Assembly (NCBI GenBank): GCA_023386955.1
Contig: JAEWIS010000030.1
Location: 1 to 64,000 of the forward strand
Reading direction: 5' to 3'
Length of the DNA: 64,000 nucleotides
Source of the DNA: Bacillota bacterium
Lineage (GTDB): Bacteria; Bacillota; Bacilli; Paenibacillales; NBRC-103111
Part shown: piece after piece, positions 3,297 through 53,338 of the stretch
How the letters are laid out: each line of letters starts with the position of its first letter
Position numbering within the stretch: the stretch's first letter is position 1
Position numbers and translations under genes: made by a program
The notes under the pieces: model-generated
The model's database searches: none
What the model was told of the DNA's origin: nothing
The model's input: the letters and a program-made list of their open reading frames with translations, nothing else

Positions 3297-3481
3297 CTAA
3301 CGGAACTCAGAAGCACTTAGCCGCTGAAAAGGAAGCGATTGGAGTTGTAGCGGAACTCAGCGTCTCTTAGCGCGGAAATTGGAGCTCTTTTGGTCCGGTT
3401 AAGCAGGCTAAGAGTCGCTCAGTTCCGTTAGCGCGCTGAGGCAGCGGATTTCGGCCTCTAAGAGTCGCTCAGTTCCGTTAG
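3297..3481. repeat. Four-word dyad cassette (F-F-R-R), copy A
   Basis: Two forward words at 3297-3320 and 3347-3370 (both contain CGGAACTCAG and end CTTAG) are followed by two reverse-complement words at 3408-3431 and 3458-3481 (both contain CTCAGTTCCGTTAG). Word centres are 50, 61 and 50 nt apart. As RNA the first word can pair with the fourth and the second with the third, forming a long bulged hairpin. The cassette lies between two genes of the STM4015-STM4011 run. The same geometry recurs at 20.3 and 25.0 kb with other core letters. Confidence 0.8.
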
Positions 3482-3572
3482 CGCGTCAAGCTGGCGGATT
3501 GCAGCCTGGAGGTAGTGGATTCCGAGACGGCCCGCCAGTCAAAAGAGCTTCCATCGAAAGGAGGACGTTCCC

Positions 3573-4937
3573 GTGTTCGATTTAACTTTTCCCGATCCGT
3601 CGGATGATGCGGCTATTGTCCGGTGGAAGGAGGAGGTGCGGGCTGAGCCGTACCGCTCCTATTTGTACTCGTATCCCCACAAAACGGCTTACCGGGAGCT
3701 GAAGCCGGGCCTGCCTCTTGCCCAGCTGTGGGAAAAGGAACCCGCTGATAGCTTCTTTTTATATATGCATATCCCCTTTTGCGGGGCCCGCTGCGGCTTC
3801 TGCAACTTGTTTACGCTGGCGGACAGGCAGCCCGGGCTGCACCGCCAATATGTGGATGCTCTGGAGCGCCAAGCCCGGCAATGGTCGCCTTTCGTGAGCC
3901 GCAAACCCTTCGCCCGTTTTGCCATCGGCGGCGGCACACCGACACTACTGGCGCCGGAGCTCCTGGACAGGCTATTCGATATAGCCGAAGAGGTTATGGG
4001 CCTAAACCCGGAGCACGCGTCCATCTCCGTGGAGGCTTCTCCGGATACCGTCACCCCGGAGCGTCTGGATGTTCTCCGTAAGCGCCGGGTAGACCGGGTC
4101 AGCATGGGGGTGCAAAGCTTCGTGGAAGCAGAGTCCGCCGCCATCTACCGGCCGCAGAAGCCGCTGGAGGTGGAGCGGGCGCTGGAGCGCCTGAAGCGTT
4201 ACGATTTCCCCGTGCTGAATCTGGACCTGATCTATGGGCTGCCCGGGCAGACGGTAAAATCGTGGTTGTATTCCCTGGAGCGGGCTCTGGCGTTCCGGCC
4301 CGAGGAAATATTCCTTTATCCACTGTACACACGGGAGCATACCATCCTGAAACCTCAAGAAAGCCGGCGGGATGGCACCGATCTGCGAATGGAGTGTTAT
4401 CTTGCCGCCCGAGACCGGCTTGCGGCGGAGGGGTATGTCCAATCCTCTATGCGCCGGTTTGCCAAACCCCCGGCACATTCCGGCAAGACCGTATTGCCCT
4501 ACGGCTGCCAGGAGGAGGGGCTGGTTGGCCTGGGCTGCGGTGCCCGCTCCTACACCCGGCAGGTGCATTACGCAACCCGGTATGCCGTCAGCCGGGTAGC
4601 TTCGGAACGGATTATCCGGGAGTATATCAGCGCCGATAGCTATGAAACCGCGGACTACGGCATGGTGCTGGACAGCCGGGAGGAGAAACGCCGCTATATT
4701 CTAAAGGCGGTTCTGCATCAGGAAGGTTTGGCGCTTCCCGCTTATGAAGAACGGTTCGGCAGCCCGGCGCTGGAGGATTGCCCGGAGCTGCAGGTGCTGC
4801 TGAAGGCGGAGTGGGCCTCTAGCTCGGATGGCATCCTCCGGCTGACAGATGAAGGTTTTGCCCATTCCGACGCCATCGGAGACGGGCTAATCTCCCCGCA
4901 GGTACGGGAGCGGATGGAAGGATTTGTGTTCGCATGA
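3573..4937 (+). CDS. STM4012 family radical SAM protein (HemN/HemW-like)
   Basis: 454 aa. The radical SAM cluster motif is at about residues 70-77 (HIPFCGARCGFC, CX3CX2C), followed by the glycine-rich FAIGGGTPTLL and by SVEASPDTVTPERL, MGVQSF and LDLIYGLPGQT, all as in coproporphyrinogen-dehydrogenase-like HemN/HemW proteins. Genuine heme synthesis is unlikely given the neighbourhood; members next to STM4011/4013/4014/4015 homologues form their own family of unknown reaction. The GTG start at 3573 is chosen for AAAGGAGGA at about 3558-3565. The stop overlaps the next start (ATGA). Confidence 0.88.
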   Translation: MFDLTFPDPSDDAAIVRWKEEVRAEPYRSYLYSYPHKTAYRELKPGLPLAQLWEKEPADSFFLYMHIPFCGARCGFCNLFTLADRQPGLHRQYVDALERQARQWSPFVSRKPFARFAIGGGTPTLLAPELLDRLFDIAEEVMGLNPEHASISVEASPDTVTPERLDVLRKRRVDRVSMGVQSFVEAESAAIYRPQKPLEVERALERLKRYDFPVLNLDLIYGLPGQTVKSWLYSLERALAFRPEEIFLYPLYTREHTILKPQESRRDGTDLRMECYLAARDRLAAEGYVQSSMRRFAKPPAHSGKTVLPYGCQEEGLVGLGCGARSYTRQVHYATRYAVSRVASERIIREYISADSYETADYGMVLDSREEKRRYILKAVLHQEGLALPAYEERFGSPALEDCPELQVLLKAEWASSSDGILRLTDEGFAHSDAIGDGLISPQVRERMEGFVFA

Positions 4938-5809
4938 GGGCCGTATTGTATTACCGCGGCTCCTTATCCTCCTGCAATTACGACTGTCCGTATTGCCCCT
5001 TCGGCAAAAAGAAGGATACAGCGGAAACTCATGCCCGGGACCGGGAGCAGCTGTCCCGGTTTGTCCAGTGGGTGGGTGCACAGAGTGAAGCCGGGCACCG
5101 TTTGAAGATCTTTTTTAACCCTTATGGGGAGGGGCTGATCCACCGCTGGTACCAGACGGCTATGACGGAGCTTTCCCGCATGGAGCATGTGGAGAAGGTG
5201 GCCATTCAGACGAACCTGTCTGCGGGTCTGGCCTGGACGGACGGCCTCGATTCGGACAAGGCGGCCTTCTGGGCTACTTATCATCCGGGGCAGGTGGGCG
5301 AGGCGGCGTTTTTGGGCAGGTGCGGGGAGCTGCACAGCCGGGGCATTCCCTTCAGTGTGGGGACCGTAGGCGTAAAAAGCGCCTTCGAAGCCATAGCCTC
5401 GCTGCGCGGCAAGCTGCCTGCGGGGGTGTATCTCTGGGTGAACGCCTACAAGGATAAGGCGGATTATTACACGGAGGAGGACCGCTCGTTTTTAAGCGGA
5501 ATCGATCCCCATTTTGAAAGGAATCTGATGGATTATGCGAGCTCCGGCAAAAGCTGCCTGGCAGGCGAGTCTGTTTTCTACGTCCAGGGCACGGGTCTGG
5601 TGAAGAGATGCTACCAGGACCGGCAGGTGCTGGGGCATCTGTACCGGGAGGGACTGGAGGGACTGTCCCGCCGGAGGCTGTGCAGAATGGATGCCTGCGG
5701 CTGCTACATCGGGTACATCCATATGCCGGAGCTGGAGTTGGCGGAGGTGTATGGGGAGCGGCTGCTGGAGCGGATTGCTGGACCCGGCGCCGGGATAGCT
5801 CGGACCTGA
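4934..5809 (+). CDS. STM4011 family radical SAM protein
   Basis: 291 aa. The Fe4S4-binding motif is very near the N-terminus (SSCNYDCPYCPFG, CX3CX2C, about residues 14-21), followed by a TIM-barrel-like region (FFNPYGEGLIH, KVAIQTNLS, FWATYHPG). The C-terminal third has several cysteines (C205, then RRLCRMDACGCYIGY) that might hold an auxiliary cluster, as in SPASM/twitch-type enzymes; that is inference. It overlaps the preceding radical SAM gene by four bases, so the two enzymes are probably made in equal amounts. The reaction is unknown. Confidence 0.88.
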   Translation: MRAVLYYRGSLSSCNYDCPYCPFGKKKDTAETHARDREQLSRFVQWVGAQSEAGHRLKIFFNPYGEGLIHRWYQTAMTELSRMEHVEKVAIQTNLSAGLAWTDGLDSDKAAFWATYHPGQVGEAAFLGRCGELHSRGIPFSVGTVGVKSAFEAIASLRGKLPAGVYLWVNAYKDKADYYTEEDRSFLSGIDPHFERNLMDYASSGKSCLAGESVFYVQGTGLVKRCYQDRQVLGHLYREGLEGLSRRRLCRMDACGCYIGYIHMPELELAEVYGERLLERIAGPGAGIART

Positions 5810-5869
5810 GCCATTCCGTGATGTTCGGAGCTGGAAAGGGCCGTTTATTACAAGGAGGAGCGCTGATAC

Positions 5870-6427
5870 ATGCTTAGGAAGCAGCAAGGGTGGACCCTAT
5901 GGATGACGGGATTGCCAAGCGCGGGCAAAACCACCACCGCCAACGCATTGACGGAAAAGCTGGAGGAGCTCGGTTGCGCCGTGGAATGCCTGGATGGTGA
6001 CAAATTGAGGCAGCATATCGGTTCCGGCCTGGGTTTTACCCGTGAGGACCGGATGGAGAACGTACGCAGAGCGGTGTACGTATGCGGCCTTTTGAACCGG
6101 CACGGAGTGAATGCGGTTGTCGCTATGATCAGTCCGTATGCGGAAATGCGTGCGTATGCCCGCAGTCAATTGACCAACTTCATGGAGGTGCATATCGACT
6201 GTGCCTTATCCGAATGTGAACGGCGGGATGTAAAGGGGCTTTATGCCAAAGCGCGCCGGGGGGAGATTCCCCTGTTTACCGGAGTGTCCGATGTTTATGA
6301 ACGCCCGGAGAATCCCGAGCTGGCCCTTCATACGGACGGTTCCGAGGTGGGGGATAATGTGCGCCTGCTTCTGGAGATGCTGCAAACCAGAGGATATGCT
6401 GCGGCGCCCTCCGTGTTCGGGGTCTAG
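5870..6427 (+). CDS. cysC: Adenylylsulfate (APS) kinase-like protein
   Basis: 185 aa, the normal length for a stand-alone APS kinase. All diagnostic motifs are present: P-loop GLPSAGKTTTA, LDGDKLRQ, GFTREDRMENVRR, the MISPY turn, CERRDVKGLYAKARRGEI and FTGVSDVYERP. The usual reaction is ATP + APS giving PAPS + ADP. No ATP sulfurylase, PAPS reductase or sulfotransferase is nearby. Instead it follows the STM4011-type gene by 60 bp with its own AAGGAGG. A role in the unknown STM4011-4015 pathway (making or acting on a phospho- or sulfo-group beside the STM4013-type hydrolase) is possible but inferred. Confidence 0.85.
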   Translation: MLRKQQGWTLWMTGLPSAGKTTTANALTEKLEELGCAVECLDGDKLRQHIGSGLGFTREDRMENVRRAVYVCGLLNRHGVNAVVAMISPYAEMRAYARSQLTNFMEVHIDCALSECERRDVKGLYAKARRGEIPLFTGVSDVYERPENPELALHTDGSEVGDNVRLLLEMLQTRGYAAAPSVFGV

Positions 6428-6497
6428 AGTCTCATTTAACGGCGGCGCCGTTTTGCCGATATAATCCATGACGACACGGCAGAAAGGCGGTGCTGGT

Positions 6498-7940
6498 ATG
6501 AATCAAAAAGAGCTGGAGGACCAGCTGCAGGCGTTTTTTGAGCATAATCCTCTGGATGACGATATGGTGTATCTCAAGCAATTTGTGAAGGAACACCCGG
6601 AAAACAAGCTTTCCTGGTATCTCTTGGGCAAGGAGTATGCGCTGCGGGGCAAACAAGGGAAGGCGCGGTACTGCTTTGCTCAAGCGGGAGAGGTATATGA
6701 AGCCTTCGAGAAAAAGAGGGTCCGTCTAGGGCTTCTGGAGGAGCTGAAGGCGGAGGAAGGGACAGCCGCCGGAGGCACCGTCCGCAAAAAACGGGCAAGA
6801 TTGGCAATCAAGCTGGCCGGTGCAGTATTAATAGCGCTTCTGGCCGGTTCATACATATTAGGAGACGGGGTTCTTCCCCGTAAAGATTTGGACGGAACCG
6901 GGGAGTTGGCTTCGGAGGAGACCGAAACAGCTGCTCCGGGAGAAGGGGGGCTGCGGATTCTGTATACCGATCCGGTTGCCGGGCGGGGTCAGGAGCTGTG
7001 GAAGCAGGTAGTTCAGCCGGGGCAAGCTCCGGGCAGCAAAACACTGGTGGTGGAGGGGATACCCACCTCTGACGGGAAATGGGTTAACGGGCTGCGCCAG
7101 CCAACACTGCTGGCCAGTGCGGAGAGTGCTTCCGCCGGCAACGGGGTGAAGGTGGATTATCTTCAGCAGGCCTGGTGCAATTGCACTCCCCAGGTGAGTG
7201 TGGAAGCAGCGGCAGCTGTAGCCTCCTGGTACCAGAGCCAGGAGCAGGACGTGATCCTGCGCTCCGTCGTCAAAGCCTACCAAAGCAGGTACGGGGCGGC
7301 GTTGCCGGAAACCCTGGACGGGGTGGTCCGGAATTTTCCGGATAATCTCCTGCCGGGGTATACAGAGCAGATGAAAGCGGCCTATGAGGCGCTGCGGAGC
7401 GGGGCTCCTTCAGCAGGTGCTGCTCCAGGCAGCGGCGGAGGAGCCGGTGCTGGTGTTGGGCAGGACGGGGCAGGGGCAGGTCAAATCCCCGCTCTCTTCA
7501 GCGAACCGCTGGAGATTGTGGTCGACCGGCAAAACTACAGGCTTGCCTTGGTCAGCGGCCGGTTTATTCTGCGCAGCTATCCGGTTGGCCTGGGGGGAGA
7601 CAAAACGCCTGAGGGTGTTTTCACCATCACGGACAAAGTCAAAAACCCCAACGGCAGAGACGATGGGGACTTCGGCTCCAGAGGCATGCAGCTGTCGGAT
7701 ACCGACTATGCCATTCATGGAACGAAAGAGCCGAGGAGCATTGGAGAAGACCGCTCACTCGGCTGCGTTCGGATGTTGAAGGCGGATATAGAAGAGCTGT
7801 TCGACATGGTCCCCTCGGGAACTAAGGTAACCATCGGACGCGGTCTGCTGCCGGCGGATATCCTCCGGAGCGAATCGCCCTTCCGTATGCCGGCCCTGCG
7901 CCAGGAAACCAATCTCGGCAAAATCTACAGGTGGCTGTAG
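6498..7940 (+). CDS. Membrane-anchored L,D-transpeptidase (YkuD domain)
   Basis: 480 aa. A charged N-terminal cytoplasmic part (about 100 residues with a TPR-like YLLGKEYALRGKQGKARY segment) is followed by one membrane helix (LAGAVLIALLAGSYI, about residues 110-125), a long extracellular linker with a Gly/Ala-rich stretch, and a C-terminal YkuD catalytic domain from about residue 340. Catalytic signatures are AIHGTKEP and SLGCVRM, where Cys is the nucleophile. Such enzymes form 3-3 peptidoglycan cross-links or attach proteins to the wall. The start at 6498 is preferred over an in-frame ATG at 6468 because AGAAAGGCGG lies just upstream. It is 70 bp after the APS-kinase gene, so co-transcription is possible. 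Confidence 0.85.
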   Translation: MNQKELEDQLQAFFEHNPLDDDMVYLKQFVKEHPENKLSWYLLGKEYALRGKQGKARYCFAQAGEVYEAFEKKRVRLGLLEELKAEEGTAAGGTVRKKRARLAIKLAGAVLIALLAGSYILGDGVLPRKDLDGTGELASEETETAAPGEGGLRILYTDPVAGRGQELWKQVVQPGQAPGSKTLVVEGIPTSDGKWVNGLRQPTLLASAESASAGNGVKVDYLQQAWCNCTPQVSVEAAAAVASWYQSQEQDVILRSVVKAYQSRYGAALPETLDGVVRNFPDNLLPGYTEQMKAAYEALRSGAPSAGAAPGSGGGAGAGVGQDGAGAGQIPALFSEPLEIVVDRQNYRLALVSGRFILRSYPVGLGGDKTPEGVFTITDKVKNPNGRDDGDFGSRGMQLSDTDYAIHGTKEPRSIGEDRSLGCVRMLKADIEELFDMVPSGTKVTIGRGLLPADILRSESPFRMPALRQETNLGKIYRWL

Positions 7941-7941
7941 G

Positions 7942-8085: not shown

Positions 8086-8193
8086 GTATGATCGCCCTTT
8101 CTTCTCACGATATTGAACACTCCTATTTTAGCACAATCCGGCGAGGGTGTACTAGCACCCCTTTATAAATTCGCGCCAAGGCTGCCGATATTC

Positions 8194-8222: not shown

Positions 8223-8241
8223 AATGAAGGAGACAGCGTAA

Positions 8242-8363: not shown

Positions 8364-8378
8364 TTGGGAGGAAGCCGG

Positions 8379-9652: not shown

Positions 9653-9665
9653 CTGTGCGGGGGCA

Positions 9666-9754
9666 AATAGCGTCCCCTGCTTCGGTTAGAATCAGATTCG
9701 TTAGGATCGGGAATATAGCCAAATTGGCAAAATAGCGTGGCTAAGATTCGTTAG
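9666..9754. repeat. Two reverse dyad words, copy E (degenerate)
   Basis: Two words of the reverse type, AATAGCG...CGGTTAG at 9666-9689 and AATAGCG...CGTTAG at 9731-9754, have centres 65 nt apart. A further AGATTCGTTAGG lies exactly 50 nt before its twin in the second word. The site sits between convergent genes. It looks like a decayed half of the four-word cassette. Confidence 0.5.
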
Positions 9755-14137: not shown

Positions 14138-15226
14138 ATGGCAGAAGTGGTGCTCAGGCCGGATCTGAAAACGGCGGGCGGAGAAGTCAGTGATATTGTA
14201 GTGAACGGCCGTTTTGCCGGGACCCTGATGCTGGTCTACCGGGAGGGGGACAGGCTTTCCGGCGCCGTGCAGCTGGAGACGGATCATCTGGACGGAAGGG
14301 AAGCCGAGCAGGTCAACCTGTTTGTGGACCGCCATATCCGGGATCTGGCCGGTGCTTTGGACATAGAGGATTATGAAGCTGTCGTTACGATGGGCAGCTA
14401 TCATCACATTCTGTCCGGAGATACCTGGCAGAGGGAAACGGAAGAGCCTATTCATCTGTATGAGGATGAGCCTGAGGTGATTTGGGTATCCGATGACGAG
14501 GACGGGTTGGGCGATTGGGATATCTATGAGCCGGAAACCTTCCGGATGGACGATGCGGAAATGGGTTATGCGGATGAGGATGACAATGAAGAGAACCCGG
14601 TCTTCTACGAGCTTGTCCCCACCCGGACTGCAGCAAGTCAATCGGAGTATCATGTCTATGATGAAGGCCGGGAGTGGGTGGCGGAGCTGATTATCCGTGA
14701 GACCGGAGGCGGGCTTGTGGCCGATGTGCATTGGATGTTCGATCCGGAAACCGAGGAGATGGACACCTTGGCCGACTACATTGCCGATGAGCTGGAGGAC
14801 CGTGTGCTAGATGGATTCCGGCTGAACCACCGGTATGAAGGAACGATTCTGGAGACTGCGGATTATGCCCAGGAGGATCTGACGGATAACGCGGATTTCA
14901 CCGGAAGCAATGCAGGCCAAAGAACCGAACAGGACTACCGTGTCACTCTAGCCCGGGACGATCAGGATATGCTGACGTATGAAATTTACGACCGCTACAA
15001 AACCCATCCTATAGGCACCGCCACAGTAGACATCAGCCGCAAGCAGCTGTCCGGCTTTATCGACTTCCGGGATTCTTCCGTTCAGTCCGTTGAGCGGGAG
15101 CGGATCGCTGCCCTGATTATGCAGGAGCTGGATAAAGAGAAGAACTATAACCGGATCAGCTTCACCATGCTTGCCCGGAACAAGCCAATTGATGAAGTGG
15201 TGTTCGAAAACGAGCCGTTTCATTAA
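14138..15226 (+). CDS. Highly acidic protein of unknown function
   Basis: 362 aa with no signal peptide or membrane helix and an extreme excess of Asp and Glu, densest in about residues 105-160 (YEDEPEVIWVSDDEDG, MGYADEDDNEEN). Two segments resemble each other in layout: an N-terminal one with FVDRHIRDLAGALDIEDYE and a later one with DTLADYIADELEDRVLDG. This suggests an internal duplication of an alpha/beta module. I do not recognise the family. GGAGGCGATGCTCC before the ATG supports the start, and a terminator follows. Confidence 0.7.
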   Translation: MAEVVLRPDLKTAGGEVSDIVVNGRFAGTLMLVYREGDRLSGAVQLETDHLDGREAEQVNLFVDRHIRDLAGALDIEDYEAVVTMGSYHHILSGDTWQRETEEPIHLYEDEPEVIWVSDDEDGLGDWDIYEPETFRMDDAEMGYADEDDNEENPVFYELVPTRTAASQSEYHVYDEGREWVAELIIRETGGGLVADVHWMFDPETEEMDTLADYIADELEDRVLDGFRLNHRYEGTILETADYAQEDLTDNADFTGSNAGQRTEQDYRVTLARDDQDMLTYEIYDRYKTHPIGTATVDISRKQLSGFIDFRDSSVQSVERERIAALIMQELDKEKNYNRISFTMLARNKPIDEVVFENEPFH

Positions 15227-15270
15227 AAAAAGCCGCGGTGCTTCCTACCGGAAGCGGTCCGCGGCTTTTG
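15227..15270. terminator. Bidirectional terminator between convergent genes
   Basis: AAAAGCCGCGG and CCGCGGCTTTT flank an inner GCTTCC / GGAAGC stem, immediately after the acidic-protein stop and before the end of the cell-wall hydrolase gene. Confidence 0.88.
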
Positions 15271-15288
15271 CTTATAGAGTGGATGGAA

Positions 15289-16110
15289 TTATTTATTCAG
15301 CTTCAGAATCTGGCCGGGATAAATGTCGGCTGTAGACAGGCCGTTGTAACCCTTCAGCATATCCACCGTCACGGAGAGCTTTTGGCTGATGCTCCAGAGG
15401 GTATCCCCGCTTTGTACGGTATACCGGGGCATTTCCTTAGAGGCATCCCCCATAAGAAGATCCGGGTTGGAAATGTACAGCTGCGCTCCCGGCATCAGTG
15501 CATCGTTTTTGACGGATTTCCAGTTCCATGTGCGAAGACTATTCAGGGAAATGCCGGTCGTCTGGCTGATTTTCCACATGGTATCGCCGCTTTGGACGGT
15601 GTAGGTCATTGGAATGACTCTCTTCACAGCCATAAACCGGTTTTGCCAATACGGTGTGGACAATGAGGTGATGGTCACACCTTTGCTCGCCGATGCGTGC
15701 AGCATTTGGTTATTGCCCAGGTATATCCCCACGTGGCCCGCTCTGTCCGGATAGGTGGTATCCCGGAAGAACAGAAGGTCTCCCGGCTGGGCTGTAGCCA
15801 TGGTAACCGCAAAACCTTCTTTCATCTGGTCATTGGAGGAGCGCGGCAGATTGATGCCGTTCTCGATAAAGGCCCGGAAGGTAAAGGAGGAGCAGTCAAA
15901 GTTGTTGGTTTGGGACGGGTCTGCACCATACAGATAGGGTGTTCCCAGGTATTTGCTGCCGGAAGCAATAATCTTATCGGCAACAGTGGTTTTGGCCGAA
16001 ACGGCGGCAGTGGCAGAGACGGATTCGGTAGCGGCAAAAGCATGAGCCGGAGCCAGGGCGCCGAAAAGAAGGACAACGCCTAGGGCAGTCTGCTGAAGTC
16101 GTTTATTCAT
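15289..16110 (-). CDS. Secreted NlpC/P60 endopeptidase with two LysM domains
   Basis: 273 aa. A signal peptide ends at about residue 26 (APAHAFA). The NlpC/P60 domain follows (about 45-160), with the catalytic Cys in NNFDCSSFTFRAF and His in AGHVGIYLGNNQMLHA. Two LysM repeats follow: YTVQSGDTMWKISQTTGI and YTVQSGDTLWSISQKLSV. It cleaves D-Glu to diamino-acid bonds of peptidoglycan stems, like CwlS/LytE-type autolysins, but here the catalytic domain precedes the LysM repeats, the reverse of LytE. Confidence 0.88.
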   Translation of the reverse strand: MNKRLQQTALGVVLLFGALAPAHAFAATESVSATAAVSAKTTVADKIIASGSKYLGTPYLYGADPSQTNNFDCSSFTFRAFIENGINLPRSSNDQMKEGFAVTMATAQPGDLLFFRDTTYPDRAGHVGIYLGNNQMLHASASKGVTITSLSTPYWQNRFMAVKRVIPMTYTVQSGDTMWKISQTTGISLNSLRTWNWKSVKNDALMPGAQLYISNPDLLMGDASKEMPRYTVQSGDTLWSISQKLSVTVDMLKGYNGLSTADIYPGQILKLNK

Positions 16111-16290
16111 AATCCGATTCCTCCCTTGTTGGACTGGCTTCTCGCCGGTAGACCCAGTATAAGGGGGGGAATGCCCAGGAACAACGCATAAATTATGGAA
16201 TCCCTTATGCCGCTGCCTGATATTGGTTAAGGAAATTGCGAAAGGGTAAAAATCCTTACGTGCATCAAAAGGCGGGTGGACTCCGTCAGT

Positions 16291-17667
16291 TTAGCGGGAA
16301 CGGAGCCCCTTGGGATAATGGTTTTTGAGCTGGCCGGCAGCACATTTGGCCCAGCCCAAGGGGTAATTTTCCACACATACGGGTACCCAGCCGTCAGGCA
16401 AATCAGCAGGCGCCGGAAGGACCTCCCCCCGGAGGTAAGCGGCCAGCTCCGGGGACTCAGCCGATAGGCTGACTGTCTGCCGGAAATTGGAAGCCGGCAT
16501 GGCCAGCGCAAGGGCGTGGGCGGGCTCCACCCGTTTTTTGCGGATGGTGGCCAGATGCAGGCCGGGCCTCGGGGATTTTAGCCCTGTAAGCAAGGTGCTG
16601 CGGAAGCGTCCCTCCCGCCCGGAAGGGAGCCAATACAGCTGTTCCCCGAAGAGTATAGGTTCTCCCGGTGGGAGCAGCTCCTTCGAGGTGAACACCGTTT
16701 CTGCAAATTCCCGGAAAAGCTTCCACGCCTCTGCCGTTTGGGCGGATGGCACAGCCGGTTTATCCTGCCGCTTTGACTTTGCGGTTTTGCGGCTCTCCAG
16801 CTCCTCCGCCTCTTCCCCATCCAGCCGGAGGACAGCGACAAAATGGCCCTCCCCTTTGACTTTGTGGGGCCAGAGCCGTTCGGTGCGGAGGAGGGTAAGT
16901 CCCGGATATTCCTTCAGGACAGCCTCTATGAGCTCCTCATTTTCCTTGCGGTTGAAGGTACAGGTGGAGTAGGCAATAGCGCCCCCGTTTTTGAGCATAG
17001 CCAGAGCATAGCGGAAGATATCCAGCTGTCTGGCGGCGCACATGTCCACATGGTCAGGCGACCATTCCTTTTGCGCCGTTTCATCCTTGCGGAACATTCC
17101 CTCTCCGGAGCAGGGGGCGTCCAGCATGATTTTATCGAAGAAGCGGGGAAAACGCTGGGCCAGCCTGTCCGGCGGAGACTGGACCACTACCGTATTAGCG
17201 GCGCCCATCCGCTCGATATTCTCCGCGAGGATCAATGACCGGGCCGGATGGATTTCATTGGCCACCAGCAGGCCTTCAGGTCCTATCTTGGCAGCCAGCT
17301 GGGTGGATTTGCCCCCCGGTGCGGCGGCCAGATCCAGCACCGTCTCCCCCGGCTGCGGGGAAAGCAGCTCCGCCGAGGACATGGCGCTGGGTTCCTGGAG
17401 GTAATACAGGCCCGCGGCATGGAAGGGGTGTTTGCCCGGCCGGGAATCCTCCCGGTAATAAAAGCCGGTGGGACACCAGGGCACCGGCTCCAAGCCGAAC
17501 TGGGCGGCAAGCCGTTCCTGCAGCGGGCTGCCGGATTGAATCTTATGGGGCTGAACCCGCAAACCATAGGTCCGCGGGGCGTCGTAGCTGGCCAGGAAAG
17601 GCTCCAGCTCATCCCCCAGTTGGATTGACATTTGTCGGATAAAATCTTCAGGCAATGTTTGAGGCAT
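16291..17667 (-). CDS. RsmF-family rRNA (cytosine-C5) methyltransferase, copy 2
   Basis: 458 aa from MPQTLPEDFI, with AAGGAGCC upstream; an open frame extends 167 codons further 5' but lacks a ribosome site. The same architecture as the gene at 10542 is present: LDLAAAPGGKSTQLA, DAPCSGEGMFRKDE, YSTCTFNRKENEE and a PUA-like C-terminal part with RVEPAHALALAM. The two copies are clearly paralogous but diverged, so they may methylate different cytosines. It is transcribed alone, opposite to its neighbours. Confidence 0.85.
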   Translation of the reverse strand: MPQTLPEDFIRQMSIQLGDELEPFLASYDAPRTYGLRVQPHKIQSGSPLQERLAAQFGLEPVPWCPTGFYYREDSRPGKHPFHAAGLYYLQEPSAMSSAELLSPQPGETVLDLAAAPGGKSTQLAAKIGPEGLLVANEIHPARSLILAENIERMGAANTVVVQSPPDRLAQRFPRFFDKIMLDAPCSGEGMFRKDETAQKEWSPDHVDMCAARQLDIFRYALAMLKNGGAIAYSTCTFNRKENEELIEAVLKEYPGLTLLRTERLWPHKVKGEGHFVAVLRLDGEEAEELESRKTAKSKRQDKPAVPSAQTAEAWKLFREFAETVFTSKELLPPGEPILFGEQLYWLPSGREGRFRSTLLTGLKSPRPGLHLATIRKKRVEPAHALALAMPASNFRQTVSLSAESPELAAYLRGEVLPAPADLPDGWVPVCVENYPLGWAKCAAGQLKNHYPKGLRSR

Positions 17668-17856
17668 ATTGGTTGAGTGGCTCCTTGCGTTGCAGTATCG
17701 TATACTCATACTAATACAAAAAGGGCCAATTTCCAAAGCGGCAGGACAAATATCTTGCCGGAAACCTTTCAAGCCCAACGCGCGTATACTACATGTAGCG
17801 ACAAAATACACCTTCGGTCTGCACTGATGCAGCCGGGCGCCGAGGAGGGGAAGCCC

Positions 17857-18339
17857 ATGAACAAAACAAGCCGGATGCTCCGGCTGGGAGCGGCGGCAGC
17901 TGCGGCAGCAGCATGTTTGGCACTGTGGGGGGCCGAGCCGCCGTCCGCTCACGCCGGTTGGGTGGACCGGGTCCGCGATGTGTTCCAGGTGCCCGGCGAA
18001 GTGGACAAGCTGAAGGAGCAATATAATGAAATGAAATCCGGCTACGATGCTACGGTGGAGCAGCTGGAGGAAACCCGGCGCCGGGCGGAGGAAGCCCAAA
18101 AGCTGACCGAGGAGTACCGCAAAACCCAGGAGCAGCTCATTACCGACAACGCGGCGCTTGCGGAGCAAAACCGCCAGCTTGCTGCCACTCTAGAGGAGCT
18201 GAAGGATTCCGAGGAGGCCCGGGCCCGGTCGGCAGCCCGTGTGAAGAGCCTCATCTGGACGGCGGTTCTGCTGGTGGGCGGATATTTCGGAATCAGCCGG
18301 GTGGCCCGGTATGTCATGCGTGCCCGGGTGAGACGCTAA
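17857..18339 (+). CDS. Exported coiled-coil protein with C-terminal membrane helix
   Basis: 160 aa. A signal peptide with an Ala-rich core (residues 1-33, ending SAHA) is followed by a continuous coiled coil (about 50-130, rich in Glu/Gln/Leu heptads such as EQLEETRRRAEEAQKLTEEY) and a membrane helix (SLIWTAVLLVGGYFGISRV), ending in a basic tail RARVRR. The layout suggests an extracytoplasmic rod anchored at its C-terminus. The family is not recognised. The start at 17857 is chosen for GAGGAGGGG. It precedes the AIM24 gene by 49 bp. Confidence 0.75.
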   Translation: MNKTSRMLRLGAAAAAAAACLALWGAEPPSAHAGWVDRVRDVFQVPGEVDKLKEQYNEMKSGYDATVEQLEETRRRAEEAQKLTEEYRKTQEQLITDNAALAEQNRQLAATLEELKDSEEARARSAARVKSLIWTAVLLVGGYFGISRVARYVMRARVRR

Positions 18340-20168: not shown

Positions 20169-20768
20169 CGGGGGAGGGAACCCGGGGCTAACCCGGACCC
20201 CCAGAACCCCGGACCCCCAGAACCTTCGGAAGGCTCGTTACCTCAGTCAACCAGTCCTTGCTCCGAGTTCAGCTAACGAACGGACACCAGCGCCGTTATT
20301 TCGATCAAATGCCGCCTTTTTGAAAACTAACGGACACCAAAGCCTTTATTACCGCCAAACGTGTGCCTTTACCGGACTGTTGGGCGAAATAGCGGCTCTC
20401 GTGTCCGTTAGCAATTACAAACCAGTTTTTTAAGCAAAATAACGCTTCTCGTGTCCGTTAGAATGACAATTTAACGGGAAGAATGAGGCGATTGAGGGAT
20501 TAAAGCTGATTAGTTGGTAGACTTGATGGTGCGAATGGGCCCGCATAGTTTGATGAACGATGAGATGAATGGTGCGAATGGGCCTAGCTGACCTGATTGT
20601 GTTGGTGAATGATGCGATTGATTTCAAATGTGCCGATTGGTGATGAGTAATAAGAGGTAGATGAGTAAACGAGTAAATGAGGAGCGGCTGCTGTTCCGTC
20701 ATCACGGAGTGCAAAGCCGCTTTTTGTTATGCATCCATTTGATATGCTTTCAATTGTTGCGCACCCGA
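20169..20768. other. Long non-coding region with repeat cassette and short direct repeats
   Basis: No gene is supported. Besides the four-word cassette (20277-20461) there are two copies of ATGGTGCGAATGGGCC at 20526-20541 and 20569-20584, within a stretch of GATGAA/GATGCGA-like low-complexity sequence reaching to about 20650. The promoter of the ArsR-type gene follows. Confidence 0.6.
20277..20461. repeat. Four-word dyad cassette (F-F-R-R), copy B
   Basis: Forward words are at 20277-20300 and 20327-20350 (core CGGACACCA, end TTATT); reverse words are at 20388-20411 and 20438-20461 (start AATA, core TCGTGTCCGTTAG). Centre spacings are 50, 61 and 50 nt, identical to copies A and C. The core letters differ from A (GGAACTCAG) and C (GGCAGTGAG), but forward and reverse arms agree with each other within the locus. 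Confidence 0.85.
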
Positions 20769-25045: not shown

Positions 25046-25230
25046 CTAACGGCAGTGAGAGACGTTATTTGCTCCAAAACGGGGTGCCTCGAAATCTTAC
25101 GGAAGCAGGGGACGCTATTGGACGAAAAAGAGGCCTACAGCGGGGCAAGTGGTTCGAATAAAGGCTGTGGCCGCCGTTAGATTTTCTGAAGGGGTGTTTT
25201 CGACGTAATAAGGGCTCTCACCGCCGTTAG
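25046..25230. repeat. Four-word dyad cassette (F-F-R-R), copy C
   Basis: Forward words are at 25046-25069 (CTAACGGCAGTGAGAGACG, TTATT) and 25096-25119; reverse words are at 25157-25180 and 25207-25230, both ending CCGCCGTTAG. Centre spacings are 50, 61 and 50 nt. The cassette lies between convergent genes, 88 bp past the mnmH stop. No other gene or terminator is evident in 24958-25272. Confidence 0.83.
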
Positions 25231-33185: not shown

Positions 33186-33667
33186 AATAGCGGAAGCGGA
33201 CCTTCCGCTATTGCGCAGCCGCACTGGAAAATCAGGGCATAAGAGCAGCCAAGCTTCCGCTATTGGCCGATAAAGCTGCAGCCTAAGCCTGGAAGAAGGG
33301 GAATAGCGGATATGCCCCTTCCCTTATCCTTGTTATACAGGCGGTGCCGGGAGAATAGCGGAAGGTTCGCTTCCCTTATTGGGGGTGGCCAATCATTGGG
33401 TGCACCTCGCGCCGAATAGCGGCAGGTTAGCTTCCCTTATTGGGGATAGCCAATCATCGGATGCACTTCGCGCCGAATAGCGGAAGCTATGTTCCGTTAT
33501 CCGGGCGTCCAGGTGCAGCGGCGTCTGATTAGCGGAACGCAATTTCCGCTATGGCTGCTGAAACCCCGCCAACGCAGGGGCGATCTGGATGATAACGGAA
33601 AAACCTTTCCGTTATCGCTTTATTTCCACACATGCATAAGCAATAGCGGAACTCCGGTTCCGCTATT
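33186..33667. repeat. Nine-word palindrome array, copy G
   Basis: Nine palindromic words of type AATAGCGGAA / TTCCGCTATT (second only half kept, third and fifth diverged) are centred near 33199, 33251, 33314, 33367, 33428, 33488, 33540, 33603 and 33654. Spacings are 52, 63, 53, 61, 60, 52, 63 and 51 nt. Words 4 and 5 belong to a 61-bp tandem duplication (33353-33413 and 33414-33474, about 87% identical by eye). The spacing rule is the same as in the four-word cassettes elsewhere. Confidence 0.85.
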
Positions 33668-36712: not shown

Positions 36713-36900
36713 AATACCGGAAAGATATTTCCGCTATTCATAGATTGTAACCAACCCAAAAGGCATAACGGAAAGCAAGTTCCGCTATCGGTCCTCCGCA
36801 GCCTGCCAAACGGCAAAAAAGAAGGAATAGCGGAAAACCGTTTCCGCTATTCCCCGTATATCCACTGCCGGTTACCAATAGCGGAAGAATATTTCCGCTA
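36713..36900. repeat. Four-word palindrome array, copy H
   Basis: Four words of type AATAGCGGAAA / TTTCCGCTATT are centred at 36725.5, 36776.5, 36838.5 and 36889.5; spacings are 51, 62 and 51 nt, one nucleotide from the F-F-R-R cassettes (50, 61, 50). The array lies in the gap between the EamA-type and RsgA-type genes. The rest of 36419-36945 shows no gene. Confidence 0.83.
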
Positions 36901-36945
36901 ACACCGCTCCCAGCCCAGTTTCTCCCCAGAAACAGTCGGCACCGT

Positions 36946-46607: not shown

Positions 46608-46691
46608 CTAACGGTGGCCAGCGCCGTTATTTGGCCCAAAAAGCCTGCTAGACAGCTCATTTTCGATAATAACGTCTCCTGCTTCCGTTAG
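46608..46691. repeat. Two-word dyad (F-R), copy D
   Basis: Forward word 46608-46631 (CTAACGGTGGCCAGCGCCG, TTATT) and reverse word 46668-46691 (AATAACGTCTCCTGCTTCC, GTTAG), centres 60 nt apart. This equals the inner pair of the four-word cassettes; the outer words are absent. It lies between the tRNA terminator and the VOC gene. Confidence 0.7.
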
Positions 46692-47193: not shown

Positions 47194-47203
47194 GCAGCTG
47201 TTT

Positions 47204-48068: not shown

Positions 48069-49859
48069 TTGTCATCCGAAAATAAATATCAGCTTTTATC
48101 ATATACCCGCCAACCGGCCGGGCTTTACGAGGAGAAGCTGGCCTACAGCATGCATCTTGCTGTTTGTGTGAATGAAGGCGGTTTCATTCCGCTCAATCAC
48201 AATACCGGTGTGCTTTATGTCAAGGCAGCGGAGCAGGAGAATCGCACCCTCAAGGCCAAGTGTCTGGCCAATCCCTACATTTTCAAGCTGGGCGGGGAGG
48301 GATATGGGGTGGTGGCCGTACGGGTGGAAGCTGACGGTCAGGCGGATGAATCCAGCAAGGGCCAGGTCATGCTGTTCACCACCAAGGATTTCCTGGAGTA
48401 TACGGAATGGGCGCCTCTGGATCTGAAAACCGGCGGTTATGTCCGCCATGTGGCCTGTACGTATTTGCCCGTGGAGGAGCGGTATTGCCTGCAGTGGTGC
48501 GATGTGGCCAACCGGCGCTACCAGGCTTATGTGACGGAGCTTGGAACAGAAGAGATTTCTCCGGAGCCGGCGGCAAGCTTCACCTCTGAGGTGGTGGCAT
48601 CCGGCATTGAAGGAGCCCGGCCGGTAAACGTGCTGGAAATTCCCGCTCGCGTGGCGGAGAAGCTTCTGGAGCGGTTAACAGTGCCGTATAATACCGGAGT
48701 CGGTTTGCCTGATGCGATTACGGTGTCCTCCAGGGAGGAACTGGACGCTGTCCAAGCAGCATTCCATTACAGCGACGGCACAACGGTGACTAAACCGGTC
48801 ACTTGGGAGGCTGATGGCATCCGTTGGGATGCTGCCGGTCAATACATGATTGCCGGAGAGGTGAATCAACCCTCCTTTTTTTTTCCGGTTTCCATCAACC
48901 GGGCGGACCCTTGTATCTTCAAGTGGCAGGGTTATTATTACTTCATCGCCACCAATGATGCGGACAATAACAGCAGTATATCTGTCCGGCGCGGGGAGAC
49001 GATCCAACAGCTTGCCACGGCTGCCGAATACGAGATTCTGAATACGAAGATGTACCCTCATATGGTCCAATTCCTGTGGGCCCCCGAGTTTCACCAGGTG
49101 GACGGGGAATTATACATATTCCTGGCAAGCAGTCCCGAGGGCTTCGGGCAGATCCGCTCCCATGTGATGAAGCTTAAGCCTGGCGGGGATATCCGCAGCA
49201 AGGGAGACTGGGAGAAGCCGGAGCCGGTTCTGAAGAGCAGCGGCGAGGTGCTGAGCGACATCGGATTAACCCTGGACATGACCACGGTTTGCATCCGCGA
49301 GAGATATTATGCCGTATGGGCCCAGCGGGACCTGAAGCCGGTTGATCTGGGCTCCTGGATCTATATTGCCGAAATCAACAAGAAGGAGCCGTGGAAGCTG
49401 ATTTCTGAGCCGATGCTGCTATCCAAGCCGGATTACAGCTGGGCGAATAACCATACCTTTGTGGATGAGGGGCCATATCCGTTATTTGCCGGGGATACCC
49501 TCTACATCACCTTCTCCAGTGCGCTGGTGGATTACACGTATTGTGTGGGGTATCTGTCCATTCACAAGGATGCCGATCTGTTGGATGCCGCCAACTGGAC
49601 CAAAGGCAACTATCCGCTGTTAACTGCCTTTTCCGTCCCCGGGGAATGCGGTCCGGGCCATAACGCCTACGTGGAGGACGACTCGGGGATGGTTTGGAAC
49701 ACTTATCATGCTCGTCCCGGCAAGGATGGCCCCAGAAGTACGGGCATCCGGCGGGTGCATTTCCACAAGGACGGGTTCCCCGTGCTGGATATGACGGAGG
49801 ACAAGGACATTGACCGTTCCTTCCGAAAGCTGAACCTGACCGTGAAGGTGAAACCATAA
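48069..49859 (+). CDS. GH43-type glycoside hydrolase with internal Ig-like domain, copy 1
   Basis: 596 aa, TTG start (AAAGGAAGG eight bases upstream), no signal peptide. Residues 1-170 form an N-terminal part (YSMHLAVCVNEGGFIPLNHN). A bacterial Ig-like (Big_4-type) segment follows (about 215-275, AITVSSREELDAVQAAFHYS and AAGQYMIAGEV), then a five-bladed GH43-like domain from about 280 (RADPCIFKWQGYYYFIATND, VQFLWAPEFHQVDGELYIF, VDEGPYPLFAGDTLYITFS). It probably removes arabinose, xylose or galactose side chains from pectic fragments inside the cell. Paralogous to the next gene. Confidence 0.83.
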   Translation: MSSENKYQLLSYTRQPAGLYEEKLAYSMHLAVCVNEGGFIPLNHNTGVLYVKAAEQENRTLKAKCLANPYIFKLGGEGYGVVAVRVEADGQADESSKGQVMLFTTKDFLEYTEWAPLDLKTGGYVRHVACTYLPVEERYCLQWCDVANRRYQAYVTELGTEEISPEPAASFTSEVVASGIEGARPVNVLEIPARVAEKLLERLTVPYNTGVGLPDAITVSSREELDAVQAAFHYSDGTTVTKPVTWEADGIRWDAAGQYMIAGEVNQPSFFFPVSINRADPCIFKWQGYYYFIATNDADNNSSISVRRGETIQQLATAAEYEILNTKMYPHMVQFLWAPEFHQVDGELYIFLASSPEGFGQIRSHVMKLKPGGDIRSKGDWEKPEPVLKSSGEVLSDIGLTLDMTTVCIRERYYAVWAQRDLKPVDLGSWIYIAEINKKEPWKLISEPMLLSKPDYSWANNHTFVDEGPYPLFAGDTLYITFSSALVDYTYCVGYLSIHKDADLLDAANWTKGNYPLLTAFSVPGECGPGHNAYVEDDSGMVWNTYHARPGKDGPRSTGIRRVHFHKDGFPVLDMTEDKDIDRSFRKLNLTVKVKP

Positions 49860-49877
49860 AGCAAGGAGCGATCATTC

Positions 49878-51710
49878 ATGGAATTATCCAATCAGCAGGA
49901 TGTTATCCTGGTATATACGCGAAAACCGGACAATGACTATACGGAGTCGCTTGCCAACAGCATTCATTTGGCTCTGCGCCAAGGAGAAGGGGAGCTTCAG
50001 CCACTGAACCGCAATTACGGTATTCTGTTTGCGGAAGCAACGGTGGACGAACGGAGTGTGATTCAGGAAAAAGGGGTCCAGCAACCGTATCTGTTCCAGA
50101 CGGCAGAGGGCGGCTTTGGGCTTGTGGCCGTACGGGTGGATAAAACCGGCGCCCCTGATGAGGAAAGCAGGGGGCAGCTGCTGCTCTGGACCTCAACGGA
50201 TCTGGCCACGTTTCAGAGCTGCGGTCTGCTGCGGCTGCATCCGGAGGCCTACATAAAGAGGGCGGTCTGCGAATATAAAGCGGCGGAGCGCGCTTATGAA
50301 ATCCGCTGGCAGGATGAAGCGGGCAAGGCCTACGTGAACAGACTGGCTGACCTTGCTGCGCCGGACGGAATTTCGGAGGCAGAGGAGGCGACGGAGGTGC
50401 GCACAGACGAGGCCTCTGTCGAAGTGCCTTTGCCTGGTATTCTCCCCGGCAACATGCTTCCTGTGGAAAGCCATGTCCGGGAATCGGTCATAGCCGCCTG
50501 GCTGCCTCTTTACCATACGGAAACTCGGGTGCCGGAGCGGATTCACGCTTCCTCCGTCGAGCAAGTGAAGGCAGTAACGGCCACGGCGGTTTATTCCGAC
50601 GGGTCCAGCGACGAGAAGCAGGTCGATTGGGATGTCAGCGGGGTGGATTTTACCCGGCCTGGTGTGTACACCGTAAGCGGTACTGTGGCGAACCGCCGCT
50701 TCCTGTTCCCGTTAGCCGAAGGGTATGCTGACCCGGTGATTCTTCCGTGGGAAGGCAAATATTACTTTCTGGCAACCAATGACAATATGAATGATATCGG
50801 GTTGTATGTGCGGGAGGCGGATACGCTGGAAGCATTATTCGCTCCCGGCTTTAAAGAGGCCGTCATTCTGGATGTGGATGAGGAGCGGGGCTTCATCCAG
50901 ACCTTCTGGGCGCCCGAATTCCATGTGATCAGCGGTGAACTGTATATCCTGTTTGCCGTTGGAGGCCGTCAATGGGGGCCGCAATGCCATTTGATGAAGC
51001 TGCGCAAGGGCGGCAGTATCATGGAAGCGGCAGATTGGCAATCACCGGAGCGGGTAAGGCGGGCTAACGGCAGATTTTTGGCTGAGGACGGAATTACTCT
51101 GGATATGACCTATTTCCGGAGCGGTGAAACCTCCTATGTAGCCTGGTCCTACCGCAAGGGCATCGGAACATCCATGGATACCGGTTCTATGATCTATATC
51201 GCTTCGGTGGAGGCGAGGAATCCTGTTGTGCTGACCAGTGAGCCGGTCTTGCTGACACGGCCGCTGCTGGGATGGGAGAACATTCAAGGCACCATCAACA
51301 ACGAAGGCCCTTATCCGCTGGTGACGGAGGATACGGTGTATCTGGCCTATTCCGGCGGGGCGGCCAGGGGCTACACCTATTCCGTTGGGCTTTTGAGCAT
51401 TCCGCGCGGAGCAGACTGTCTGGAAGCCGCCAACTGGACCAAAGCAGGCACACCTGTGCTGTCCTATTATTCTCTTAAGGGACTATACGGCGCCGGCCAT
51501 AATTCCTTCTTCCGGGATACAGACGGCACCGTCTACATCCTGTATCACGGAGAGGAGCGGCTGGTGAAGCATGGAGTCTGCAGCTCGGCCATGCACCGCG
51601 TTCATTTCAACAAGCAGGACAAGCCTGTCTTCGATGTGGCAGGGGATCGGGATGTTCATCCGGCGCTGACTGCATGTACGATTCAAGTGGTGGTGCAGCC
51701 GCAGCCTTAA
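49878..51710 (+). CDS. GH43-type glycoside hydrolase with internal Ig-like domain, copy 2
   Basis: 610 aa, paralogue of the preceding gene with the same domain order: N-terminal part (YTESLANSIHLALRQGEGEL), Ig-like segment (about 225-275, VEQVKAVTATAVYSDGSSDE and RPGVYTVSGTV), then GH43-like domain (YADPVILPWEGKYYFLATND, FIQTFWAPEFHVISGELYIL, NNEGPYPLVTEDTVYLAYS). Its start is 18 bp after the first copy's stop with CAAGGAGCG. A tandem duplication with subsequent divergence is evident by eye; the pair may act on different linkages of the same side chain. Confidence 0.83.
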   Translation: MELSNQQDVILVYTRKPDNDYTESLANSIHLALRQGEGELQPLNRNYGILFAEATVDERSVIQEKGVQQPYLFQTAEGGFGLVAVRVDKTGAPDEESRGQLLLWTSTDLATFQSCGLLRLHPEAYIKRAVCEYKAAERAYEIRWQDEAGKAYVNRLADLAAPDGISEAEEATEVRTDEASVEVPLPGILPGNMLPVESHVRESVIAAWLPLYHTETRVPERIHASSVEQVKAVTATAVYSDGSSDEKQVDWDVSGVDFTRPGVYTVSGTVANRRFLFPLAEGYADPVILPWEGKYYFLATNDNMNDIGLYVREADTLEALFAPGFKEAVILDVDEERGFIQTFWAPEFHVISGELYILFAVGGRQWGPQCHLMKLRKGGSIMEAADWQSPERVRRANGRFLAEDGITLDMTYFRSGETSYVAWSYRKGIGTSMDTGSMIYIASVEARNPVVLTSEPVLLTRPLLGWENIQGTINNEGPYPLVTEDTVYLAYSGGAARGYTYSVGLLSIPRGADCLEAANWTKAGTPVLSYYSLKGLYGAGHNSFFRDTDGTVYILYHGEERLVKHGVCSSAMHRVHFNKQDKPVFDVAGDRDVHPALTACTIQVVVQPQP

Positions 51711-51761
51711 CGGGGGAGCCGGCCATCCGCGTTCTATACGCACGATAAGGAGAGGGTCACG

Positions 51762-53180
51762 ATGAAAAAGCAAGGTGTAAACCCCTATCTGCCCTCCTGG
51801 GAATATATTCCTGACGGAGAGCCCCATGTCTATGACGGACGGGTATATGTGTACGGCTCCCATGACCGGTTCAACGGGCATGTGTTCTGCTTGAACGACT
51901 ATGTATGCTGGTCTGCGCCGGTGGATGATCTGGGCGATTGGCGTTATGAAGGAGTCATCTACCCCAAAACCGAAGATCCCCTCAACCGGGACGGAAGCAT
52001 GTGTCTCTATGCGCCGGATGTGACCGTCGGGCCGGACGGCCGGTATTATCTGTATTACGTGCTGGATAAGGTATCTGTGGTTTCGGTGGCGGTTTGTGAC
52101 AAACCGGCAGGGCGGTATGCATATTACGGTTATGTGTCGTATGCCGACGGCACCCGCCTGGGGGAGAAGGAGGAGGACGAGCCCCAATTTGACCCGGCTG
52201 TGCTGACAGAAGGGGATAGAACCTACCTCTATACGGGCTTCTGTGCGGTGGGAGACCGGTCCCGGAAAGGCGCCAGCGTGACGGTTCTGGGCCCGGATAT
52301 GCTGACCATTCTGGAGGAGCCGGCCACGCTTATGCCCAGTCAGCCTTACAGCGGGGGCAGCGGTTTTGAGGGGCATGAATTTTTCGAGGCTTCCTCCATC
52401 CGCAAAATAAGGGACACCTATTATTTCGTTTATTCCTCCGTGGTGATGCATGAGCTGTGTTATGCCACAAGCCCATCTCCCACAGGCGGCTTCGTATACA
52501 GGGGCGTAATCGTCAGCAATAATGATTTGCATATCGGTTCTTATAAACCTGCGGATAAACCCATGTTCTACGGCGGCAACAACCATGGGGGCTTGGCGGA
52601 AATCAACGGGGAGTGGTACATCTTCTACCACCGCCAGACCAACGGCACCCATTTCAGCCGCCAGGGCTGTGCGGAACGGCTTCGGCTTCATCCGGACGGT
52701 TCGATTCCTCAGGTGGAGATGACCTCCTGCGGGCTGAACGACGGGCCATTGGCGGGAAAGGGAGAATATCCCGCTTATCTGGCCTGCAATCTGTTCTACA
52801 AGGATGAGGCCAAGTATGTGGGGGGTGAGGGGATTTGGATGGACAGCCGCTTCCCCAGAATTACCCAGGATGGCAAGGACGGGGATGAAGAGCCCGGTTA
52901 TATCGCCAACATGCTGGATTCCGCAACGGCCGGGTTCAAGTATTTCCACTGTGAGGGAGTCAAACGGGTGAAAATTCGGGTACGGGGCTACTGCCGCGGG
53001 AGCTTCCAGGTGAAAACCGCATGGGATGGCCCGGTGCTGGGCGAGATTCCGGTGGTGTTCACCAATGTGTGGAAGGAATATGTAGCGGATATCGCCATAC
53101 CCGATGGCGTGCAGGCCATCTACCTGACGTATACCGGCTCCGGCAGCGCCGGACTGGCCTCCTTCACGCTGGAGGTATAA
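51762..53180 (+). CDS. GH43 glycoside hydrolase with C-terminal CBM6-like domain
   Basis: 472 aa, no signal peptide. Catalytic propeller: GEPHVYDGRVYVYGSHDRFNG, LYAPDVTVGPDGRYYLYYV (with the conserved Asp) and HEFFEASSIRKIRDTYYFVYS (conserved Glu). From about residue 345 a beta-sandwich like CBM6 follows (FKYFHCEGVKRVKIRVRGY, VWKEYVADIAIPDGVQ, YLTYTGSGSAGLASFTLEV), typical of arabinoxylan- or arabinan-active GH43 enzymes. GGAGAGGGTCACG places the ATG. Third gene of the GH43 operon. Confidence 0.88.
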   Translation: MKKQGVNPYLPSWEYIPDGEPHVYDGRVYVYGSHDRFNGHVFCLNDYVCWSAPVDDLGDWRYEGVIYPKTEDPLNRDGSMCLYAPDVTVGPDGRYYLYYVLDKVSVVSVAVCDKPAGRYAYYGYVSYADGTRLGEKEEDEPQFDPAVLTEGDRTYLYTGFCAVGDRSRKGASVTVLGPDMLTILEEPATLMPSQPYSGGSGFEGHEFFEASSIRKIRDTYYFVYSSVVMHELCYATSPSPTGGFVYRGVIVSNNDLHIGSYKPADKPMFYGGNNHGGLAEINGEWYIFYHRQTNGTHFSRQGCAERLRLHPDGSIPQVEMTSCGLNDGPLAGKGEYPAYLACNLFYKDEAKYVGGEGIWMDSRFPRITQDGKDGDEEPGYIANMLDSATAGFKYFHCEGVKRVKIRVRGYCRGSFQVKTAWDGPVLGEIPVVFTNVWKEYVADIAIPDGVQAIYLTYTGSGSAGLASFTLEV

Positions 53181-53203
53181 CTAGCGGTGGTATGCTGCCC
53201 GCG

Positions 53204-53338
53204 GTAACGGACCGGTAAGACGCTATTTTATCAAAAGTAGAGAATTTGCCAATTTAACGGACTCCAGTGACGCTAATTGCAGCTATGGAGACGGTGGAGC
53301 GCCTTTTTCGACCGAATAAGATCCCCTGTGTCCGCAAG
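53204..53338. repeat. Three-word dyad cassette (F-F-R), copy F
   Basis: Forward words 53204-53227 and 53254-53277, reverse word 53315-53338; centres 50 and 61 nt apart, exactly the geometry of copies A-C. The fourth word, expected near 53365-53388, is replaced by a terminator hairpin. Letters have drifted more than in A-C. Confidence 0.7.

Follow-up and report, generated by a model that had tools for sequence, protein, structure and literature searches.

The window analysed here, a 64,000-nucleotide stretch of contig JAEWIS010000030.1 from a member of the Paenibacillales (Bacillota; assembly GCA_023386955.1), carries in eight of its intergenic regions whole or partial copies of an element built from dyads of the form TARCGG...CCGYTA (Table 1). 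The unit is an intergenic element of 183–190 bp with four dyad words (W1 to W4), whose centres are laid out at a short, a long and again a short spacing (S-L-S), S being 49–53 bp and L either 60–64 or 70–74 bp. A sequence-only reading had placed such words in all eight regions, always between called genes, and inspection of the regions bore this out; the centre spacings that it gave agree with ours to one or two bases, and the 9.7-kb copy that it singled out as deviating is indeed degenerate. New here are the discrete four-word unit, the conserved half-sites, the 70–74 bp spacing in relatives and a linked gene family.

Table 1. Elements and partial elements of the window; centre spacings are in bp
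Feature	Positions	Centre spacings	Words	Neighbouring genes
Four-word element	3297..3481	50/61/50	3298-3319, 3348-3369, 3409-3430, 3459-3480	Between STM4013-family and STM4012-family genes
Degenerate two-word copy	9668..9753	65		
Four-word element	20277..20461	50/62/50	One 3-mismatch word between W2 and W3 omitted	3' of MsnO8-family monooxygenase gene
Four-word element	25046..25230	50/62/50		3' of mnmH
Nine-word compound run	33186..33667	52/64/52/61/60.5/52/63/51	One 3-mismatch word omitted	Between Rad50/SbcC-like gene and ZigA-like gene
Four-word palindromic element	36713..36902	51/62/51	TARCGGAA-N6-TTCCGYTA	Adjoins RsgA-like gene
Two-word partial element	46608..46691	61		Between tRNA gene and glyoxalase-family gene
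Partial element	53204..53338	50, then 62 (by eye)	53205-53225, 53255-53275, degenerate third ~53317-53337 (by eye); further word with two mismatches at 53182, directly adjoining the first, omitted	

Layout and conservation of the element

Words were called as two hexamers, TARCGG and CCGYTA, with at most two mismatches and a core of 20–23 bp. The window and the loci of eight relatives together yielded 131 chains of at least three words, 105 of which have exactly four words in the S-L-S layout. Among 300 nearest-neighbour distances of up to 140 bp, 275 fall within 49–53, 60.5–64 or 71–73 bp, another 21 lie at 111–117 bp, where one word was missed, and four lie elsewhere. Counts of half-site distances peak at the same values in the window and in the loci of four relatives. 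The stretches from genomes G001 and G002 were picked by single words irrespective of spacing. For G013, G020, G003 and G014 the selecting pattern allowed a wide gap (15–45); for G011 and G025 it allowed a narrow one, which biases the S values of these two genomes and leaves their L values unaffected. The window holds five chains of at least three words at permitted spacing and its block-shuffled version none; shuffling, which covered the window and the G013 and G003 loci, left no such chain in the latter two either.

The word itself varies between genomes, being of the type CTAACGG-N10-CGYTATT in G001 and G002, TARCGGAAA-WWW-TTTCCGYTA in G011, and TARCGGAA-N5-TTCCGYTA in G013, G003 and G020. 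The compound run at 33 kb looks like two four-word elements plus a 61-bp tandem duplication, and elements occupy the same gap between SbcC-like and ZigA-like genes in two related loci (L001 and L002). In a G025 locus (L129:3597-3900) a 50-bp word-plus-spacer unit is repeated in tandem, so that the element is lengthened with its spacing unchanged.

The sequence-only reading had held that geometry, not sequence, is conserved. Its first half stands: in one subfamily of 25 copies the spacers have a mean identity of 35% and keep their lengths, and the palindromic pair in the SbcC-like/ZigA-like gap has 49 of 101 spacer positions identical with zero length change. Its second half does not, since half-sites are conserved as well, at 78% mean identity in the same 25 copies. 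In four orthologous pairs, 151 of 168 half-site letters are kept, as compared with 202 of 331 in the spacers (p 2e-12), which points to selection on the element in situ.

Pattern searches in related genomes, mostly drafts, found at least one match in 72 of the 104 genomes of the Paenibacillus family and at least ten in 26, with a maximum of 419; reversed-pattern controls summed to 0–16 per genome. Among 397 other genomes of the phylum, which we infer to lie outside the family, three had one match each and the rest none.

A phased, probably double-stranded site

S, L and long L are each about one helical turn apart and lie near 5, 6 and 7 turns. In every group tested, the A+T content of the spacers recurs every 10–10.5 bp at a constant phase relative to the dyads. 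Copies within one genome share ancestry, which inflates z; as a safeguard, one locus was taken from each of 27 genomes, and the phasing was retained with a z of 16, against 0.1 in control intergenic DNA. In A+T profiles, a long L shows one extra peak compared with a short L. In two orthologous pairs, L is 72 bp in one member and 61 bp in the other, a difference of exactly 11 bp, and the other spacers differ by no more than one base. One of these pairs lies in the SbcC-like/ZigA-like gap (L001 and L002) and is the top match among 24 copies of its subfamily (spacer identity 0.55, the next being 0.41); orthology of the other, L046/L082, is based on synteny and on a spacer in which 22 of 28 letters match (by eye). 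With spacings near 5, 6 or 7 turns, 11-bp indels in situ and 10-bp A+T phasing, the proposal that the words lie on one face of the DNA is supported.

The same reading had also offered a folded RNA, and the elements could in principle be structured hairpins active in transcripts at gene 3' ends, where they are indeed placed. Twenty-six copies fold strongly, at –50 to –95 kcal/mol (raw energies with no shuffle baseline). However, pairing would demand that the third arm letter (A or G) match across the word, and it does not: 255 words comprise 85 A-T, 65 A-C, 64 G-T and 41 G-C combinations, i.e. 126 matched and 129 mixed, so that the two letters are independent overall (p 0.52) and a hairpin is disfavoured. 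Taken alone, the 21-bp cores show a negative association (odds ratio 0.44, p 0.009), in keeping with one subfamily's asymmetric words. On the transcript strand, A..C mismatches are about as common as G..T wobbles (49 and 45, p 0.76).

Words W2 and W3 show no covariation in the 41 elements of the G001/G002/window/G014 set (z 0.3, word middles); in the same set W1-W4 is weak (2.1) and W3-W4 reaches 3.2 (5.1 for whole words), and W1-W2 reaches 3.8 in G013/G003/G020. This likeness of adjacent words fits local duplication better than pairing. An Rfam scan of the window at the gathering score returned only a tRNA, with nothing at the element, and a scan of five G011 loci only a cobalamin riboswitch away from it. 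Two results do lean towards pairing and thus away from a purely double-stranded site: 22-bp cores tend to matched arms (25 words, p 0.07), and in the pooled palindromic groups inner arm positions 7–9 match above expectation (z 3.0, 2.3 and 7.6), although the latter may be an effect of pooling genomes with different words. As an RNA would also leave the one-turn steps and the A+T phasing unexplained, we regard this alternative as very improbable. In six G011 loci (L102, L105, L107, L108, L110 and L119) the element lies inside a dispersed unit of ∼ 400 bp that ends in a terminator-like hairpin with a T-run; this unit had no Rfam match in the five loci scanned, L119 being outside the scan.

The linked gene and its protein

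In G001 and G002 we first met a gene flanked on both sides by elements, and its family is present in 85 of the 104 family genomes. Phased words lie within 300 bp 3' of the stop codon in 20 of 30 loci of this gene, one per genome, compared with 0 of 150 after shuffling; the 30 include L256, whose sequence ends too soon past the stop to show any, and words lie 5' of the start in three of them. Of the 19 genomes that lack the gene, 15 have no pattern match and the other four have 3, 2, 1 and 1. Moreover, the S spacing of the element tracks the protein class (p 5e-7), class II consisting of distant homologues (33–42% identical), and for the G011 paralogue on C36 and for the G001/G002 pair the adjoining geometry is that of a dispersed subfamily in the same genome. 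Beside one class II gene (L281, G084:C1:1116950-1120576) there is a long tandem array of 36 phased words, the listed ones being the identical palindrome TAGCGCACGAACCGTGCGCTA at steps of 63–64 bp.

The protein has 557 relatives in the database, the best 120 of which are mostly labelled 'transcriptional regulator' or 'hypothetical protein' or are unnamed. Class I proteins had no match reaching the cut-offs in sequence searches of Pfam, NCBIfam, PADLOC and PDB. A class I structure model (mean pLDDT 87.9, pTM 0.65) had a single Foldseek match in PDB below 0.001, an R2 retrotransposon protein (6.7e-4, TM 0.27), along with matches to winged-helix proteins, and a second structural comparison indicated a nuclease core like that of I-Bth0305I followed by a C-terminal winged helix. 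The partner is modelled as a nuclease-like domain of the DUF559/EDxHD kind plus a C-terminal winged helix, a predicted fold that by itself shows no activity. All nine aligned class II proteins read E-x-D-G-x-x-x-H-x-x-D (E-I-D), which may represent a complete acidic/histidine active site.

Spread, placement and interpretation

Elements sit at gene 3' ends. By a simple purpose-made gene caller only one of the 131 lies inside a called gene, and among gaps of at least 60 bp, elements occur in 37 of 134 convergent, 85 of 558 tandem and only 1 of 174 divergent ones. This placement, nearly never between divergent genes, would suit an element of host chromosome architecture, i.e. a strong site for gyrase or a nucleoid protein, made of dyads and phased A+T, that manages supercoils behind genes in the manner proposed for BIME-2 (bacterial interspersed mosaic elements) in E. 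coli, the linked protein being secondary. Selection in situ would suit it as well. According to the excerpt of the source (PMC6379681), 10-bp phased G/C content marks the Escherichia coli gyrase motif and BIME-2 are strong gyrase sites; the element, presumably bent as well, resembles both in its length and its position downstream of genes, and likewise shows 10-bp phased G/C content. Set against the same excerpt of PMC6379681, it differs in its sequence-specific dyads, its length (∼ 185 as compared with 130 bp), its two central lengths and its restriction to one lineage. The change of L from 62 to 72 bp moves the arms by half a turn each, and a single two-fold central complex would not be expected to fit both. 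Gyrase is universal, yet the 397 other genomes of the phylum show at most one match each, and neither the linked gene nor the match between protein class and geometry is predicted. For these reasons we consider host architecture an unlikely explanation. A specific regulon was rejected too: the 245 element-adjacent proteins include seven clusters shared between genomes, and in one of these, the L046/L111 cluster, the elements turned out to lie in different gaps.

Mobility under structural constraint, another suggestion of the sequence-only reading, is borne out in part, by dispersed copies, an empty site and a linked gene, but a target-site duplication of the element was not found. Dispersed copies occur in both orientations with shared ends; in BLAST pairs many matches stop at the outer words and others extend into larger units. 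The site between the STM4013- and STM4012-family genes is empty in G001 and G002, the gap in the window exceeding theirs by the length of the element and a further ∼ 70 bp. Neither L001 nor L002 has a complete copy at the place of the 25.1-kb element, L001 keeping a lone CTAACGGCGG half-word in a short gap; at the 36.7-kb site an element is missing from L002, and L001 holds three words spaced by 38 and 51 bp (by eye). Dispersal, shared ends, both orientations and the empty site in two relatives are what a plain family of miniature inverted-repeat transposable elements (MITEs) would give, i.e. copies of a non-autonomous transposon with long inverted ends that owe their geometry to common descent. 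Insertion-sequence-family MITEs are indeed alike in being dispersed, with inverted ends and shared boundaries. They differ in that the element lacks a target-site duplication (direct repeats of at least 6 bp near the ends in 1 of 107, against a null of 2%), while its internal geometry is under selection, including in orthologous copies. Common descent also accounts poorly for half-sites so much more alike than spacers of constant length, and for 10-bp phasing across 27 genomes. A plain MITE family thus appears improbable; a mixed form, with mobile origin and selection, belongs to the explanation favoured below.

Some elements do ride in larger units. In G001 they lie inside a MITE with ends GGCTCTACGCCAAAATCAGTG... 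(L053:9140-9495 and 17395-17750, L054, L050), which we take to be ISL3-like and whose target repeats are 8 bp long, for example TCTTTTCT and TTTTTTAT (by eye); in G025 (L123, L130, L124) the larger unit that encloses them has the inverted ends AATGTTGTCAGGTTA / TAACCTGACAACATT (by eye). A phage or plasmid origin was rejected: of 67 viral stretches, 65 had a single match and two had 2 and 4, and in similarity searches one element had no counterpart in plasmid DNA and another had none in phage DNA.

The explanation that we favour, and hold to be probable, is a double-stranded DNA element bent on one face, read by the linked protein and spread with its help. Each element would be a site of ∼ 18 helical turns with four TARCGG-arm dyads on one helix face, separated by roughly 5, 6 (or 7) and 5 turns; A+T recurring at each turn in register would let a bound protein bend or wrap the whole stretch; such wrapping we consider likely. 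The reader would be the linked protein, whose gene often stands directly upstream of an element: the nuclease-like product of this small gene probably recognises the elements, and its binding to them is the step of which we are most confident. Paralogues would tend to own one element type each, with copies scattered across the genome with the paralogue's help, although for mobilisation by the protein we see the balance as even. The pair of gene and element might then be selfish or domesticated, its copies persisting at gene 3' ends where they are harmless or somewhat useful; a useful host role there is put forward tentatively.

Several observations weigh against this explanation. Only 21 of 60 further homologues of the linked gene are followed by an element (close class I, 5 of 20; distant class II, 12 of 20; last, distant set, 4 of 20), 17 of the 85 genomes with the gene have zero pattern matches, and the tests of linkage, co-occurrence and class were made without kinship correction. 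Linkage could also come from gene and element sharing one mobile unit, without any binding, and purifying selection in situ is unexpected for dead selfish copies. Class I proteins read E-I-Q (five of six) or E-I-H (one of six) where class II reads E-I-D and, judging from this replacement, may cut no DNA; the protein is not encoded in the window (best tblastn E 0.26). As for the phasing, periodicity persists outside the element, more weakly than inside (z 1.1–4.0 over 80 bp; amplitude 1.89 against a null of 0.41 at 11 bp, the first 10 bp being skipped), the spectra have extra peaks near 8.75–9 and 12 bp, which we interpret as side lobes caused by the window masking, and 13 of the 17 G002 copies in the comparison of L 61 with L 72 come from loci fetched by similarity to an L-61 copy of the window.

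A literature search that reached few subscription papers found no description of this element or of the gene-element pair. The logic of a repeat with a cognate gene is already known from REPs (repetitive extragenic palindromes) and their RAYT (REP-associated tyrosine transposase) proteins, and the favoured explanation would follow it with an unrelated protein and no hairpin constraint. REP/BIME and REPINs with RAYT resemble the element in several ways: their short palindromes form extragenic clusters with a set arrangement, can reach hundreds of copies, differ in sequence between lineages, lie at gene 3' ends and, in several loci, flank a gene. The element nevertheless departs in at least one defining trait from both RAYT-linked REPs and MITEs. 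Its words lack, by eye and with no formal tag scan, the GTAG/CGTC tag by which REPs are defined in the excerpt of PMC3733652; it has four words at whole turns, phased spacers and a third arm letter free of hairpin constraint, and its partner is of another fold. A RAYT partner was rejected: the Y1 domain PF01797 was not found in five of 12 element-bearing genomes (G002, G058, G014, G039 and G046), drafts in which genes may be missed, and was found in two of 12 genomes without pattern matches. The EDxHD homing endonuclease I-Bth0305I, as described in the excerpt of PMC3943268, is similar in the fold of its catalytic domain, in its long DNA target (nearly 60 bp) and in its known spread through DNA breaks. 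In the protein described here the binding part would instead be a winged helix and the candidate target multi-copy and intergenic, and in class I the acidic residue of E-x-D is replaced.

Together, the elements and the linked gene point to an undescribed DNA-wrapping or mobile-DNA system. That they form a new class of genetic system is a possibility to which we give slightly less than even weight: it would comprise a winged-helix nuclease-like protein and a nucleosome-like, sequence-encoded wrapping site, with a geometry private to each paralogue, up to hundreds of copies at 3' ends, and protein and geometry co-evolving by one-turn steps. If the favoured explanation is true, bacteria would possess a DNA-wrapping site encoded in sequence and served by its own reader, in up to hundreds of copies per genome, a natural test-bed for selection on helical phasing, and a testable target for a protein mostly carried under uninformative labels.

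Two minor features lie apart from the elements. At 53540-54811 the window weakly resembles the EreB erythromycin esterase family, far below the cut-off (25.8 bits, the cut-off being 750), which does not imply a resistance gene. In L001 the ZigA-like gene is split by ∼ 3.7 kb (14513-18251) relative to the window and L002.

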